Assembly (NCBI GenBank): GCA_016789175.1
Contig: JAEURK010000336.1
Span: forward strand, 1 to 52,241
Reading direction: 5' to 3'
Origin: Anaerolineales bacterium
GTDB lineage: Bacteria > Chloroflexota > Anaerolineae > Anaerolineales > UBA6663
DNA length: 52,241 bases
Position numbers and translations under genes: made by a program. Below the pieces are notes generated by a model. It was not told the origin of the DNA. It saw only the letters and a list, made by a program, of their open reading frames with translations, and did not search any database. Within the stretch, counting starts at the first letter, position 1, and every line of letters begins with the position of its first letter. Positions 36,967 through 42,982 of the stretch are shown here, piece after piece.

Positions 36967-36990
36967 TGAGCGCGTGTCGCAGCGCGCTCA
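36967..36990 (-). terminator. Hairpin at the end of the MerR/B12 regulator gene
   Basis: TGAGCGCG (36967-36974) and CGCGCTCA (36983-36990) form a perfect 8-bp stem overlapping the regulator stop codon. It may separate the regulator from the SRPBCC operon downstream; no T tract is seen. Confidence 0.4.
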
Positions 36991-37974
36991 GGCGCCCAAG
37001 AGCTGCCGAACGCGGGTGACCCCGGCCGAGAGGGTGTCGCCTAGATAGACTCCGGGCACCGATTCGCGCAGCGAAGGGCTGATAATGCAGGCCCGCCCGC
37101 CGAAACCGAACTTCGGTTTGGGCCGCATCGCGTTGAGGCCGACATGGACTCGCTGCAACTCGTGCGCCGACTGTAGCGAGTTCGCGGTCAGGATCACCAT
37201 CGCCGGGCGCTCGATGCGCGTGTAGTCAAGCAGGTCGTCGACGTTGACATCCTGACCCAGGTACTCGACCCGGTAGCCTTCGCGGCGGAGAAAGATCGAA
37301 AGGATCAGGGCCGGGATCTCATGCAACTCGCCCGGGGCGCAGCCGATGATGATCCGGCTGTGGAGGCGGCCATGCGGCATCTGCTGGTAATACGTCATCA
37401 AACGACCGCGCAAGTAGCTGCTGGCGAAGTGCTCGGTCGCGATCCGGATCCGGCCGGCAGACCAGGCGTCGCCGATCTTGTGCAGACAGGGCGTGATGAC
37501 GTCGTTGCACACGGCGACGATATCGTACTGCCCGATCACGTCATTTATGATCAGGTTCGCAGACTGCTCGTCGTGCCGGAGCAGGACCTCGTACAGACGC
37601 GTGGCGTAGCCGTCCGGAGCGGAACCCGGCAGGCGCGTGATCGGCGCCTGCGGCGTTGCCACGATGGCGGGCCACAGCCCGGCCCGACGCAGATCGAGCA
37701 ACTCGCCGGCCGCCGTGCTGATCGATTGGCCGCTGTCGACGCGCGACTTGAGCCAATGCAGGATCGCGACATCACGCTCGGAATACAGGCGATAGTTGCT
37801 GCGGGTCCGATGCGGCACAAGCAACTGGTAGCGGCGCTCCCAGGCTCGCAATGTCACGGGCCGGATGCCGACTTCGCCGCAGACGGTTTTGATACTGAAC
37901 TTTGGCACATCCGGCAGGTCGCCGATGTTGGTCTTGGCTTCGACCGCCTCCGGGGCGGAAAGTGGTTGTATCAT
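36988..37974 (-). CDS. MerR-type regulator with B12-binding domain (CarH/LitR-like)
   Basis: The 328-aa protein has a MerR helix-turn-helix (about 24-95: KTVCGEVGIRPVTLRAWERRYQ, RLYSERDVAILHWLK), a four-helix cap and a Rossmann-like cobalamin domain. The cap shows the W-x9-E-H motif of CarH (Trp171, Glu181, His182), which shields the adenosyl group. His218 in the GELHE loop is the likely lower cobalt ligand, 36 residues after His182, much as in Thermus CarH. Such proteins are tetrameric repressors in the dark and release DNA in light. The ATG at 37974 is chosen because the promoter at 38047-38020 would start transcription below the GTG at 38019. The carotenoid-type operon is downstream and a histidine kinase is divergent. 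Confidence 0.9.
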   Translation of the reverse strand: MIQPLSAPEAVEAKTNIGDLPDVPKFSIKTVCGEVGIRPVTLRAWERRYQLLVPHRTRSNYRLYSERDVAILHWLKSRVDSGQSISTAAGELLDLRRAGLWPAIVATPQAPITRLPGSAPDGYATRLYEVLLRHDEQSANLIINDVIGQYDIVAVCNDVITPCLHKIGDAWSAGRIRIATEHFASSYLRGRLMTYYQQMPHGRLHSRIIIGCAPGELHEIPALILSIFLRREGYRVEYLGQDVNVDDLLDYTRIERPAMVILTANSLQSAHELQRVHVGLNAMRPKPKFGFGGRACIISPSLRESVPGVYLGDTLSAGVTRVRQLLGA

Positions 37975-38019
37975 CGCACTGCTCTGGGAACGGGCGGCCA
38001 ATTGCTGTGCCGCCCGCAC

Positions 38020-38047
38020 ATAAAATGCATCTTGTCCAAGCTGTCAA
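38020..38047 (-). promoter_or_regulatory. Promoter of the MerR/B12 regulator gene
   Basis: On the minus strand a perfect TTGACA (38047-38042) and TTTTAT (38025-38020) are 16 bp apart. Transcription would start near 38013, about 40 bases before the ATG at 37974. Confidence 0.5.
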
Positions 38048-38073
38048 GTCATTGTACACCCTTTGTGCAATGC
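38041..38073 (+). promoter_or_regulatory. Putative CarH-type operator with 11-bp direct repeats
   Basis: TTGTACA (38052-38058) and TTGTGCA (38063-38069) are exactly 11 bp apart, and a weaker CTGTCAA (38041-38047) sits 11 bp before the first. The weak copy is the complement of the regulator's own -35 box, so binding would block it. The inner part also reads as the inverted repeat ATTGTACA/TGTGCAAT. This fits autoregulation by a CarH-like repressor; it also lies upstream of the divergent kinase gene. Confidence 0.55.
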
Positions 38074-38101
38074 TCGACAACGGGACCCGGGTACATCTTG
38101 C

Positions 38102-39721
38102 ATGCCTGAACCCATCTTTCTCGACGCTGGCCACGCCTGGGAGGGGTTGCGCGAGATCGCGCGGTCGCTCTCGGGCGCTCACGACCTCGGCACGACCCTT
38201 GACCTGATTGCAGCCAAGACCGCGCAGGTCCTTGGGGTCGACTCGTGTTCGATCTATCTGCTGGATGACGAAACCCTCTGGCTGCGCGCCTCGACCGGCC
38301 TCTCACGCCAGGCGGTCGGACGCGGCTCACTTCAGATCGGCGAGGGACTGACCGGTTGGGCGGCCGCCAACAATCAGCCGGTGGCTGTCGCGGATGCCCA
38401 GACCGATCCGCGCTTCAAATTCGTGCCCTACACCGGTGAGCGTGCCTTCCATTCGCTCCTGGCTGTCCCCCTGGTCTCTGAAGGGCGCGTGACCGGAGCC
38501 ATGAACGTCCAGACCTATGCGGCGCACGCCTTCACCGGGCCCGAGATCGGGCTGCTCAGCCTGATCGCCGATCTGGCGGCGGGTGTGCTCAAGCGGGCCA
38601 GCCTGACCGATAACCTCAACCGCCAGCTGGCCGAGCTCAAGACGCTCGCCCGCGTCAGTCAGACCATCAACCAGCCGCTGTATCTCGATGACATGCTCAA
38701 CGTGGTCGTCGAGATGGCCGCCAAGGTCATGGGCGCCGCGGTCTGCACGCTGCGCCTGGTCGACGAGGCGCAGGAGGGGTTGGTGGTGCGGGCTGCGGCC
38801 ACCCGGATCGAGGGCTACGAGCCCAAGCCGGCCCTGCGCCTGGACGAAGGCATCAACGGCCTGGTGCTGAGCGAGCGCAAGCCTTACACGGTGCTCGACG
38901 TCCGCACAGACCCGCGTTTTCCGTTTCGCGAAGCTGCCCAACGCGAGGGCCTGGTCAGCATGCTGGCCGTGCCCCTGATCGTGCGCGACCGCGCGATCGG
39001 CGTGCTCAATGCCTTTACCACGCAGACCCATGTGTACACCGAGGCCGAGATCGGTCTGCTCTCGACCCTGGCCAACCAGACGGCGTTAGCGATCGAGAAC
39101 GCGCAGCTCGTCACCAGCGCCTCCATCGTGCGCGAGATGCACCACCGCGTCCGAAATAACCTGCAGCAAGTGGCGATGCTGCTTCGCCTGCAGGCCCAAC
39201 AGTCGGGCGATTCGAAAGGGCACCTGCAGATCGCGGTCAACCGCGTCCAGGCGATCGCGGCCGTCCACGAGGTGCTGGCCCAGGAAGGCTACCGGCTCGT
39301 CAACGTGCGCGAAGTCGCCGACCGGATCGTGCGGCTGCGCGGCCAGCACCTATCGCAGCCCAACCTGAGCGTGCAGGTGCAGGTCGACGGCGAAGACGTG
39401 TTGCTGCCCTCGCGCGCGGCCACGTCGCTAGCCCTGGTGATCAATGAGCTGCTGGAGAACGCCATGGAGCATGCCTTCAGCGGCCGGACGGAGGGCCGGG
39501 TACGGATCCACTGTGCCCAGGCGGGCGGTGATTATCGAATCGACGTGACCGATGACGGCGTGGGGATGCCGGTCAAACCGATCGACAGCCTGGGGCTGGA
39601 GATCGTCACGGCCCTGGTGCGCGATGACTTGCACGGCACCTTGAGCTTCCAGTCCCCCATCGGCGGCGGCACCCAGGCGATCGTCCAGCTCCCACGCCCG
39701 GCGCAGTTGGATCTCGAGTAG
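38102..39721 (+). CDS. GAF-GAF histidine kinase, HisKA_2 type
   Basis: The 539-aa soluble kinase has two GAF domains (about 25-165 and 185-330), then a HisKA_2 dimerisation helix VREMHHRVRNNLQQVAML with the phospho-acceptor at His347/348, and an HATPase domain (ALVINELLENAMEHAF, DDGVGMPVKPIDSLGLEIV). This is the PdtaS/EutW class, whose partners are ANTAR response regulators, and such a gene follows 110 bp downstream. The start at 38102 (MPEPIF) follows the divergent promoter region shared with the MerR/B12 gene; an upstream in-frame start lies inside the operator. Confidence 0.9.
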   Translation: MPEPIFLDAGHAWEGLREIARSLSGAHDLGTTLDLIAAKTAQVLGVDSCSIYLLDDETLWLRASTGLSRQAVGRGSLQIGEGLTGWAAANNQPVAVADAQTDPRFKFVPYTGERAFHSLLAVPLVSEGRVTGAMNVQTYAAHAFTGPEIGLLSLIADLAAGVLKRASLTDNLNRQLAELKTLARVSQTINQPLYLDDMLNVVVEMAAKVMGAAVCTLRLVDEAQEGLVVRAAATRIEGYEPKPALRLDEGINGLVLSERKPYTVLDVRTDPRFPFREAAQREGLVSMLAVPLIVRDRAIGVLNAFTTQTHVYTEAEIGLLSTLANQTALAIENAQLVTSASIVREMHHRVRNNLQQVAMLLRLQAQQSGDSKGHLQIAVNRVQAIAAVHEVLAQEGYRLVNVREVADRIVRLRGQHLSQPNLSVQVQVDGEDVLLPSRAATSLALVINELLENAMEHAFSGRTEGRVRIHCAQAGGDYRIDVTDDGVGMPVKPIDSLGLEIVTALVRDDLHGTLSFQSPIGGGTQAIVQLPRPAQLDLE

Positions 39722-39831
39722 GCGCCCGGCGCCCGTTTGCCTGAGGCCGCTTCGCCATTTGGGGGATTGTCCCGGTCGGGCCGGCTGTGCCACAATCCCG
39801 GGTTGAACAGACCACTTCTCGAGGTGTTGCA

Positions 39832-40407
39832 TTGGACAAACTACGCATTCTGGTTGCCGACGACGAAGCCATCATCCGCCTGGGTTTGCGCGGCATGCTG
39901 GCGCAGATGGGCCATGAGGTCCTGCTGGCGGCCGACGGGCGTGAAGCTCTCAACATCGCCCGCACGTCACGGCCGGACCTGGCGCTGCTCGACATCCGCA
40001 TGCCGCAGGTGGACGGCCTCGACGTCGCGCGCGCGCTGAACGAGCGCCAGCCGATGCCCATCATCTTCCTGACCGCGTACAGCGAACAGGATCTGATTGC
40101 CGAAGCGGCCGAGCTCAAGGTCCAGAACTATCTGATCAAACCGGTCGACGAGCGCGACCTGGTGGCCGCTATCCCGATCGCGGTCGCCAAGTTCCGCGAG
40201 GGCCAGGCCGCTCAAAACCGGATCGATGAACTCGAAGAGACGATCGAGACGCGCAAGCTGGTCGACCGCGCGAAAGGCATCCTGATGCAGGCCGGGTCGA
40301 GCGAGGATCAGGCCTATCACACCCTGCAGAAGCGGGCCCGCGACGAGCGCATCTCAATGCGGCAGGTGGCCGAAGACATCCTGCGCAAGGCCGGGCGCCT
40401 CAAGTAA
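39832..40407 (+). CDS. ANTAR-domain response regulator (PdtaR-like)
   Basis: The 191-aa protein joins a receiver (ILVADDEAIIRLGLRGML; phospho-acceptor Asp54 in LALLDIRMP; LTAYSEQD; YLIKPVDE) to an ANTAR domain (about 135-190: ETRKLVDRAKGILMQAGSSEDQAYHTLQKRARDERISMRQVAEDIL). ANTAR proteins bind paired hexaloop hairpins in mRNA leaders and prevent termination. The TTG at 39832 is chosen because GAGGTG lies five bases upstream; a GTG at 39787 is an alternative but lies before a possible promoter (TTGTCC-N18-CACAAT, ending 39796). The HAD gene follows after 11 bp. Confidence 0.9.
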   Translation: MDKLRILVADDEAIIRLGLRGMLAQMGHEVLLAADGREALNIARTSRPDLALLDIRMPQVDGLDVARALNERQPMPIIFLTAYSEQDLIAEAAELKVQNYLIKPVDERDLVAAIPIAVAKFREGQAAQNRIDELEETIETRKLVDRAKGILMQAGSSEDQAYHTLQKRARDERISMRQVAEDILRKAGRLK

Positions 40408-40418
40408 GCGCGTCAGCC

Positions 40419-41270
40419 ATGCCGTATGCCCAGGATTGGTCTCCGTTCGAGACCGTGATCTTCGACTGTGACTCGACGCTGTCGACCGTCGAAGGCATCG
40501 ACGAGCTCGCCCGCTGGGCGGGCAAGGAAGCCGAGGTCGCGGCGTTGACCGACCGCGCCATGAACGGGGAGCTGCCGCTCGAGCAGGTCTACACGCGCCG
40601 GCTCGAGATGATCAACGCCACGCGCGAGAACGTCGAGCGCCTGGCTCAGTTGTATCGCGACACGCTCGTCGCCGACGCCCGTGACGTAATTGGAGCGCTC
40701 CAGGCCGATGGCCGGCAGGTCTTCATCGTCAGCGGCGGCCTGGCCAAGGGCGTGCGCGACTTCGGCGTCTGGTTGGGCGTGCCCGAAGAGCGGATCCACG
40801 CCGTCGAGCTTGAGTACAACCAGCTGGCCGGAAACTGGTGGGAGACCTGGCGGCACCCGGCCGGGCGCAACCTGAACGAGCAGATCCTGGGGCACGACGG
40901 GGGTCCGCTGACCATCGGGCGCGGTAAAGCCGAAATCATCCGGCGCCTGCGAGGCTCTGCGCCCGGGCGCGCAATGCTGATCGGCGACGGTGGAAGCGAT
41001 CTCGAAGCCAGCGAGGCGGTCGACCTGTTTGTCGGGTTCGGGGGCGTGGTCGCGCGGCCAAAAGTTGCGGCCGGCGCGCGGGTGTTTGTCCGGGCAGCAA
41101 CACTGGCGCCGATCCTGCCGTTGGCCCTGGCGCGGCCGGAGGGACCGACCGGGTATTCCGAACTATTTGCGCGCGGCGTCGCAGCAGTGGCGGACCCGGC
41201 CAGAGTAGTCTTCCAACACGCCGAACTGCGCGCCGCAGCGTTGCGGCGGATGGGTCTCGCGGCGGCATAG
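40419..41270 (+). CDS. Phosphoserine phosphatase-like HAD hydrolase
   Basis: The 283-aa protein has all HAD motifs: FDCDSTLSTVEGIDELA (nucleophile Asp16, acid/base Asp18), VSGG (motif II), Lys in GRGKAEII (motif III) and GDGGSDLEASEA (motif IV). The cap follows motif I as in SerB. It starts 11 bp after the ANTAR regulator and is followed by a SerA homologue, so a serine-pathway role is plausible. The 60-residue C-terminal tail (LARPEGPTGYSELFARGV) is extra. Phosphoserine as substrate is likely but not proven. Confidence 0.82.
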   Translation: MPYAQDWSPFETVIFDCDSTLSTVEGIDELARWAGKEAEVAALTDRAMNGELPLEQVYTRRLEMINATRENVERLAQLYRDTLVADARDVIGALQADGRQVFIVSGGLAKGVRDFGVWLGVPEERIHAVELEYNQLAGNWWETWRHPAGRNLNEQILGHDGGPLTIGRGKAEIIRRLRGSAPGRAMLIGDGGSDLEASEAVDLFVGFGGVVARPKVAAGARVFVRAATLAPILPLALARPEGPTGYSELFARGVAAVADPARVVFQHAELRAAALRRMGLAAA

Positions 41271-41293
41271 CAGAGATCGGGCGTTCGCCGCTG

Positions 41294-41312
41294 TCGGCGC
41301 GAAAAGCGCCGA
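41294..41312 (+). terminator. Hairpin after the HAD phosphatase gene
   Basis: TCGGCGC (41294-41300) and GCGCCGA (41306-41312) enclose a GAAAA loop, 24 bp after the stop codon. No T tract follows. It may separate the kinase-regulator-phosphatase unit from the SerA-like gene. Confidence 0.45.
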
Positions 41313-41340
41313 TAACGGGGCATTCCCGGTATCTATACTG

Positions 41341-41346
41341 TACAAT
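41341..41346 (+). promoter_or_regulatory. -10 box of the SerA-like gene, leaderless type
   Basis: TACAAT ends seven bases before the ATG at 41354 and there is no Shine-Dalgarno, so the transcript probably begins at the start codon. A second box, TATACT, lies just upstream (41334-41339). Confidence 0.45.
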
Positions 41347-41353
41347 CGCGCCC

Positions 41354-42982
41354 ATGATGGCGCTTGGCTCCTCGCTCTCCGAACCCCAAACCTACCGTAT
41401 CCTGATTACCGATCCGTTGCCTGAAGCCGGCATCGCGATCCTGCGTGACGCGCCGGACGTCAGCCTGGTGGTCAGCGACCTGCACGGCGAGCCGTTGCGG
41501 GCCGCGATCGGGGACTACGACGCCCTGATCGTGCGCTCAGGCACTGCGGTCGACCGCGCCCTGATCGATCGCGCGACCCGTCTCAAGCTGATCGGTCGCG
41601 CCGGCCAGGCGGTCGACAACATCGATATCCCGGCTGCCACAGCCCGGGGGGTCATGGTGATGAACACCCCTGAGGCCGTGGCGATCGCGACCGCCGAACA
41701 CACCTGGGCCTTGCTGCTTGGGCTATGCCGGCATGTCCCGACAGCCGACCGCTCGGTGCGCGTGGGCAACTGGGATCGCGGCCGCTATCTCGGGATCGAA
41801 CTGAGCGGCAAGACCCTGGGCCTGATCGGTTTCGGCCGCGTCGGGCAACTCGTGGCCGCCCGTGCGCACGCATTCGGATTGCGTGTGGTCGTGTGCGACC
41901 CCTATATCGACGAAGACATCGCCCGCAAAGCCGGCGTGACTCTGATGCCGCTCGATGAGTTGCTTCCCCGCGCCGACATCATCAGCCTGCACGCCTCGCT
42001 CACCGGCGCCCGGCCGGGCCTGATCGGCACGGGCGAGCTGGCCCGCTGCAAGGCGGGTGCGCGGCTGATCAACACGGCCCAGGGCGCGCTGGTCGACGAG
42101 CCGGCCCTGGTCGCGGCCTTACAGAGCGGGCGCCTGGCGGGTGCAGCGTTGGACGTGTTTGCTCAGGAGCCGCCGATCGGATCGCCGCTGCTGACGCTCC
42201 CGAACGTCGTCCTCTCGCCTCGCCTGGGCACATCGACCCAGGAGGCGCAAGGCGTTGTCGCCCGGCAAATCGCCGAGCAGGTACTGGACGCCCTGCGCGG
42301 CCACAACTACCGCAACGTGCTCAATCTGCCCTTCGCTGTCGGGCCTGACTTCCGTTTGATCGGCCCTTATCTGACTCTGGCGGAGAAGCTCGGTTCGTTG
42401 TTGGCGCAGCTTGGCGACCTACCCCCGCGCCGTCTCGAACTTGAAGTCCGGGGCTCAGGGTTGCAGGACATGGTGCGCCCGATCGCCGTCGCAGTCTTGA
42501 CCGGCGTGATGCGTCACCTGACCGACGATACGATCAACTACGTCAACGCGCCGGCTCTGGCAGCGGAGCGCGGGATCCAAATCACCCAGACCCGCGGCTT
42601 CGAGCTGGTCGACTACCCAAACCTGATCTCCGTGCGCGCGCAATGGGACGACGAGGGCGACGACCGAGAGCGTCTTCTGGCCGGCACGATCTTCGGCGGT
42701 AGCGATATCCGATTGGTGCAGATCGACCACATCCGCATGGATGCCCGCCCGTTCGGTCCGGCCTTGATCATGCAAAGCCGAGACGTGCCGGGCTTGATGG
42801 GCGGGGTCGGCTCGCTCCTCGCGCGCCACGACATCAACATCGCCGAATGGCGCCTGGGCCGCGACACCCCGGGCGGGATCGCGCTCTCGGTGCTCAACCT
42901 CGACAGCGTGCCCGCAGACGAGGTTCTCGAGCAACTCCGGGCCCTGCCCCAGGTCGTGGCCGTGCGTCTGGTTTCGCTGTGA
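41354..42982 (+). CDS. SerA-family dehydrogenase with altered catalytic residues
   Basis: The 542-aa protein has the long SerA layout: NAD-dependent 2-hydroxyacid dehydrogenase domain (about 10-325), ASB intervening domain and C-terminal ACT domain (LIMQSRDVPGLMGGVGSLLARHDINIAEW). The nucleotide loop LGLIGFGRVG and substrate-side VRSGT and RAGQAVDNID are present. The catalytic set Arg-Glu-His is broken. The usual NxARGG motif reads INTAQGA (Gln243 for Arg), Glu272 is kept in DVFAQEPP, and the PHLGAST motif reads SPRLGTST (Arg290 for His). Spacings of 29 and 18 residues equal those of human PHGDH. It is therefore either not a normal 3-phosphoglycerate dehydrogenase or not an enzyme. A terminator follows. 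Confidence 0.85.
   Translation: MMALGSSLSEPQTYRILITDPLPEAGIAILRDAPDVSLVVSDLHGEPLRAAIGDYDALIVRSGTAVDRALIDRATRLKLIGRAGQAVDNIDIPAATARGVMVMNTPEAVAIATAEHTWALLLGLCRHVPTADRSVRVGNWDRGRYLGIELSGKTLGLIGFGRVGQLVAARAHAFGLRVVVCDPYIDEDIARKAGVTLMPLDELLPRADIISLHASLTGARPGLIGTGELARCKAGARLINTAQGALVDEPALVAALQSGRLAGAALDVFAQEPPIGSPLLTLPNVVLSPRLGTSTQEAQGVVARQIAEQVLDALRGHNYRNVLNLPFAVGPDFRLIGPYLTLAEKLGSLLAQLGDLPPRRLELEVRGSGLQDMVRPIAVAVLTGVMRHLTDDTINYVNAPALAAERGIQITQTRGFELVDYPNLISVRAQWDDEGDDRERLLAGTIFGGSDIRLVQIDHIRMDARPFGPALIMQSRDVPGLMGGVGSLLARHDINIAEWRLGRDTPGGIALSVLNLDSVPADEVLEQLRALPQVVAVRLVSL

Follow-up and report, generated by a model that had tools for sequence, protein, structure and literature searches.

Phosphoglycerate dehydrogenase (PGDH, SerA) catalyses the committed step of serine synthesis and is a textbook allosteric enzyme. 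The locus described here raises the question of what a full-length PGDH homologue does once two of its three catalytic residues have been replaced. The gene, which we call serA' (41354..42982, + strand, 542 aa), lies in the 52,241-nt contig JAEURK010000336.1 of an Anaerolineales bacterium (GTDB Anaerolineales; UBA6663; assembly GCA_016789175.1), and the whole of this stretch is referred to below as the window. A profile search with TIGR01327 (phosphoglycerate dehydrogenase) matched residues 15-542 with 548 bits, the cut-off being 454, and the protein scored above the Pfam cut-offs for 2-Hacid_dh, 2-Hacid_dh_C, PGDH_inter and ACT. This curated score and full-length match, together with the catalytic-ASB-ACT domain order found by Pfam and fold search, place serA' in the type I PGDH sequence family. 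The NAD-binding loop IGFGRVGQ (residues 157-164, 41822..41845, +) is kept, and it is followed by the intervening or ASB domain (residues 331-467, 42344..42754, +), assigned by PGDH_inter and by a fold match to Mycobacterium tuberculosis SerA, and by the ACT domain (residues 468-542, 42755..42979, +), which Pfam and alignment identify and which keeps the serine-site residues Asp477 and Asn495. The AlphaFold2 model has a mean pLDDT of 90.3, and its top fold matches are M. tuberculosis PGDH structures, the serine-bound 3dc2 included. Its whole-chain TM-score is low (0.57), which in the model is probably a matter of domain orientation, and its catalytic domains match those of human PHGDH at 1.3-1.4 Å.

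The active site was read at the codon level and by alignment. Codon CAG (42080..42082, +) encodes Gln243, GAG (42167..42169, +) encodes the retained catalytic Glu272, and CGC (42221..42223, +) encodes Arg290; in the alignment with M. tuberculosis SerA (1ygy), Gln243 and Arg290 occupy the columns of the ARGG Arg, which binds the substrate carboxylate, and of the PHLG His, the acid/base. The corresponding residues of the E. coli enzyme are Arg240 and His292. The serA' protein thus shares with the M. tuberculosis type I enzyme the domain order, the fold, the NAD loop, the equivalents of Arg61 and Arg142 and the Asp and Asn of the ACT serine site, and differs from it in having Gln243 and Arg290 where that enzyme has Arg233 and His280 (PMC6300728). 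In the PGDH mechanism the substrate carboxylate is bound by the Arg, with the His as proton acceptor (PMC6300728), and type IIIK PGDHs carry Lys instead of His at the catalytic position (PMC6300728, PMC6303947). Of the residues of a functional PGDH, serA' retains the Glu and lacks both the Arg and a His or Lys. Since Arg and His are both gone, the established mechanism predicts that the ordinary PGDH reaction should be abolished, and serA' very probably lacks it; the loss of PGDH chemistry is well supported, and the lack of activity itself is what we infer from it.

Outside these sites the protein is little changed. Among 85 near-invariant positions (at least 95% conserved among 59 intact long PGDHs) serA' differs at 5, namely G86A, M176L, R243Q, H290R and V481L. 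The stretch GRAGVGVDN reads GRAGQAVDN, a change that is not specific to serA' because two intact members of the same family also vary there. The position of M. tuberculosis Tyr461 is Ser475 in serA', as it is likewise in 16 of the 59 intact relatives.

An initial sequence-only reading of the window had reported the loss of Arg and His with retention of Glu272, the NAD loop and the ACT domain, and had seen in the well-kept sequence a sign of selection for a changed function; it had also allowed that a sequencing error at the two codons could explain the pattern. The codons, the alignment and the retained NAD- and serine-site residues bear out the description, and the error did not materialise. 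Gln and Arg stand at both sites in the congeneric genome G001 (UBA6663) as well, encoded there by CAA and CGG, and because the same residues occur with different third bases we rejected sequencing error. The substitutions are therefore fixed in both genomes of the genus, G001 being the only other one in our set, so that fixation rests on two genomes. Between these two genomes serA' has a dN/dS of 0.090; the adjacent serB gave 0.091, the short serA described below 0.084-0.107 and PSAT 0.126, values that are rough as synonymous sites are near saturation. At 0.09, on par with enzyme genes, serA' is under strong purifying selection and is not a pseudogene.

In G001 we also came across a full-length copy (C434, loci L010 and L043, DKKP01000287.1) in which the N half of a short serA, with PSAT upstream, is fused to the C half of a long serA'. 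It could be taken for a hybrid SerA, but an assembly chimera is more likely: the complementary halves fall precisely on contig ends, those of C46 and C250, and we therefore read the copy as most likely a misassembly joined at the shared GKTLGLIGFGR stretch. Its N-terminal half was excluded from the trees, and the C46 piece was substituted in the dN/dS calculation.

The genome of the window encodes a second, canonical SerA. This protein, of 315 aa and encoded on contig C283, has Arg, Glu and His intact and has neither ASB nor ACT (type III form); type III PGDHs, being devoid of both domains, have no built-in regulatory domain. Its gene lies downstream of the PSAT (serC) gene on the same contig and strand, and in G001 the PSAT gene abuts the start of the short serA. 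The two genes, serA' and short serA, are on separate contigs of the window genome and do not form one operon. Immediately before serA' the window carries a SerB-like HAD phosphatase (40419..41270, +) with intact-looking DCDST, VSGG, GK and GDGGSD motifs, the only one found in the genome, which scores below the serB equivalog cut-off with the usual motifs present. As short SerA, PSAT and SerB are all encoded, serine synthesis looks complete at the level of gene content. Loss of the serine operon altogether was ruled out, with serB in the window and PSAT and the short serA on C283.

Gene order among the relatives indicates where the serB-serA' pair comes from. Most long PGDHs, intact or altered, have a SerB-like HAD gene directly upstream or one gene upstream, and Thermoflexus, Promineifilum and others have genes for a HAD phosphatase, an aminotransferase and an intact long PGDH in this order, a set that looks like the whole phosphorylated pathway to serine. 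Judged by this order, the window pair is a remnant of an ancestral serB-aminotransferase-serA operon. Within the family the genomes form a series, with the long intact form only (G005), long and short forms both intact (G002), and a long altered with a short intact form (G000 and G001). Further upstream lie genes for an ANTAR response regulator (39787..40407, +; 11 bp before serB) and a GAF-GAF-HisKA_2 histidine kinase (38063..39721, +), both conserved neighbours in the family, where the pair is kept upstream of serB-serA (L045, L047, L131). The sequence-only reading had drawn attention to this two-component pair beside serA', and the adjacency stands; the pair, seen beside SerA in this family only, is not specific to the altered protein, because it adjoins intact SerA too (L045, L047). 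A link to the serine genes through ANTAR antitermination is possible.

To place serA' among its relatives we used a survey of 165 non-redundant long PGDHs, mainly from Chloroflexota, with Acidimicrobiia, Gammaproteobacteria, Gemmatimonadota and a few others, for which taxonomy was taken from record titles and most data were metagenome bins. The catalytic Arg was lost in 40 of the 165, being replaced by His in 27, Phe in 4, Gln, Asp and Tyr in 2 each and Lys, Ser and Val in 1 each; His290 was lost in 10 of these altered proteins and Glu272 in 4. In a tree built with the three catalytic columns removed, supported branches force at least 4 origins or changes of the Arg loss, and parsimony gives 6. 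A single altered clade of 22 sampled genomes has H, F, Y, D and V at the Arg site, so that the conserved feature is the absence of Arg and not one new residue. That the losses exceed chance agrees with the presence of R/E/H in every short SerA copy readable at the three sites (some copies are cut by contig ends); the 125 intact long forms have R/E/H by definition.

Several other arrangements were noticed in the survey. Five altered SerA from two clades (L091, L092, L096, L116 and L275) have Arg and His exchanged, reading His...Glu...Arg, and a swapped catalytic pair is conceivable in these HER proteins. At L222:4664-6409 (G079:C8) a 582-aa protein encoded beside an aminotransferase and a short SerA resembles SerA in its N-terminal part, though with other losses in the active site (GNATPYLNNID, NTAHAA, TPGIAA), while its C-terminal part is unrelated and replaces ASB/ACT; from its sequence it is apparently another dead SerA with a different fusion. 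Locus L254 (G336:C804:9900-13400) carries two intact long PGDH genes in tandem.

The altered long form goes together with the short one. A short canonical SerA was present in 37 of 40 genomes with an altered long form versus 17 of 125 with an intact one (Fisher p = 3e-20), and in Chloroflexota alone, in the first sample, in 24 of 25 versus 6 of 20 (p = 3e-6); these p values ignore kinship, the genomes being related and the co-occurrence phylogenetically clustered. Phylogenetically independent pairs number only 4-6, too few for a sign test to reach significance. Three altered genomes (L106, L278 and L280) yielded no short SerA, possibly because the bins are incomplete. The strongest single case of co-occurrence is SS36427bin_1 (L092/L223), where serB, an AGX-like aminotransferase, a short SerA (REH) and a long SerA' (HER) follow one another in a row on one strand.

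We then asked which sites the 40 altered proteins retain. In contrast to Arg243, kept in none, the NAD-loop residues G159 and G161, Asp182 (NAD specificity) and the ACT residues Asp477 and Asn495 are kept in all 40, Trp140 in 38, Arg or Lys at 142 in 37 and Arg61 in 35. Asp463 and Asn481 of the M. tuberculosis enzyme, the equivalents of Asp477 and Asn495, bind serine (PMC6300728), and its Arg132', to which position 142 of serA' corresponds by alignment, reaches into the active site of the neighbouring subunit (PMC6300728). A conserved residue of this kind would be needless in a dead homodimer and needed in a mixed dimer with a live partner, which is suggestive only, as a structural role may instead explain the conservation of Arg142 and Trp140. 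The retention of the phosphate-binding Arg61 in most altered proteins suggests that some substrate binding may persist. Features of a regulatory pseudoenzyme are thus found together in serA': loss of catalytic residues under purifying selection, a paralogue in the same genome that is intact by its residues, and retained effector-site residues.

Because of the purifying selection, the fixation of both changes in the genus and the second canonical serA, serA' is best read as having a changed role other than that of a PGDH, and of the three forms of such a role offered by the sequence-only reading that of an NAD/serine sensor has the best support, in line with the complete retention of the NAD- and ACT-site residues checked. 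We propose, with a probability of about 0.5, that serA' has no catalytic function but binds serine and, as a partner of the short SerA, gives that enzyme back its feedback control. In the proposed course of events the ancestor of serA' would be the long type I SerA, with catalytic domains, ASB and ACT, of the ancestral serB-aminotransferase-serA operon; a short type III SerA with intact Arg/Glu/His would have assumed the initial reaction of serine synthesis, after which serA' would have lost Arg and His. Serine would bind the ACT domains of serA', which would dimerise with the short SerA across the interface that their catalytic domains have in common, where Trp140 and Arg142 are kept, and relay the serine signal to it as HisZ does for short HisG. 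The inactivity of serA', its binding of serine, its physical pairing with the short SerA and the feedback are all points that we infer from sequence. More tentatively, the arrangement may amount to a two-subunit serine-regulated PGDH, in which a short catalytic SerA receives ACT/ASB regulation, and perhaps a trans Arg, from a dead long paralogue, with several parallel origins in Chloroflexota.

The retained NAD and ACT residues would equally suit a stand-alone NAD(H)/serine sensor, or a transcriptional or metabolic regulator resembling CtBP, acting on SerB, the ANTAR regulator or some other partner. The neighbours at first seem to favour this, serB adjoining most loci and the GAF kinase and ANTAR regulator being kept upstream in the family. 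However, the serB adjacency is that of the old serine operon and is equally present with intact SerA, so that regulation of the adjacent phosphatase, another of the earlier proposals, is not needed to explain it; the ANTAR pair was seen beside it in this family only and also stands beside intact SerA; and Arg142 and Trp140, whose role in PGDHs is at the active site of an adjoining subunit, are conserved. A stand-alone role is unlikely on this evidence, and the short SerA is a likelier target than SerB because it has no regulatory domain of its own. A changed reaction or substrate, with Gln243, Glu272 and Arg290 as a new active site, had been proposed too. Glu272 is kept in 36 of the 40 altered proteins, both genomes of the genus have Gln and Arg although the codons differ synonymously, the HER exchange appears in two clades, and the site evidently tolerates change in the type IIIK PGDHs with Lys for His (PMC6300728, PMC6303947). 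This reading is weakened by the variety of the replacing residue, which may be H, F, Q, D, Y, K, S or V and differs among clades and even inside single ones; moreover, serA' has no His left at either position, and Asn89 is also lost in most of the largest altered clade. We consider a new reaction decidedly unlikely.

Two further readings give serA' less of a new role. It might be a relict, made redundant by the gain of a short SerA, drifting towards loss and kept as part of the serB transcript. Altered forms do occur where a short SerA exists, as redundancy would allow, but the open frame, a dN/dS equal to that of the enzyme genes, the ACT and NAD residues kept in 40 of 40 and an altered clade of 22 genomes without general decay make such a relict improbable. 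Alternatively, serA' could still be a PGDH of reduced or altered kinetics that works through unconventional residues or residues of a partner subunit. The phosphate-binding Arg61 and Arg142, Glu272 and the NAD site are all retained; nevertheless, the carboxylate-binding Arg and the proton-acceptor His (PMC6300728) are both gone and an intact SerA is encoded elsewhere in the genome, and residual PGDH catalysis is the most improbable of the explanations considered.

The preferred reading, serA' as a serine-binding partner of the short SerA, has parallels in other pathways. The logic is that of HisZ and short HisG, where the catalytic subunit is short, has no regulatory domain and is joined by a non-catalytic subunit carrying the end-product site (PMC9734150), although that family is unrelated, serA' is paralogous to the very enzyme it would regulate and its pairing with the short SerA is only proposed. 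In trypanosomatids, prozyme of AdoMetDC and the deoxyhypusine synthase paralogue are likewise dead paralogues of biosynthetic enzymes under selection, and they bind and activate the live enzyme (PMC5201418, PMC3663545); enzymes and organisms are others there, and in our case it is the dead protein that bears regulatory domains absent from the live one. Plant ANGUSTIFOLIA also has a 2-hydroxyacid dehydrogenase fold without catalytic residues (PMC6303947), but it is CtBP-like rather than SerA-like, eukaryotic, without ASB/ACT and unconnected to serine synthesis. Neither a PGDH pseudoenzyme nor a heteromeric PGDH turned up in the open-access literature searched, which leaves out most subscription journals. 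The dead paralogue as regulator is a known kind; its repeated occurrence in the SerA family, tied to a live partner lacking the domains, appears to be new. If the proposal is right, some short SerA enzymes would be regulated through a separate subunit, and the natural series from long intact only, through both intact, to long dead with short intact would trace the birth of a pseudoenzyme regulator. For annotation, TIGR01327 and similar models name such proteins phosphoglycerate dehydrogenase with two of the three catalytic residues missing.

Finally, some features of the non-coding and flanking sequence were observed. A divergent MerR/B12-type regulator gene adjoins the GAF-GAF-HisKA_2 kinase and ANTAR regulator genes (window 36988-40407). 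Rfam gave no credible match on the sequence, only one miRNA hit below threshold. Between serB and serA' there is a gap of 83 bp with a hairpin-forming sequence (window 41265-41360, z = -2.4), which is absent from the corresponding 44-bp gap in G001. Immediately 5' of the serA' ATG, the stretch GTACAATCGCGC is common to the window genome and G001; it may be part of a promoter, in which case the leader would be very short.
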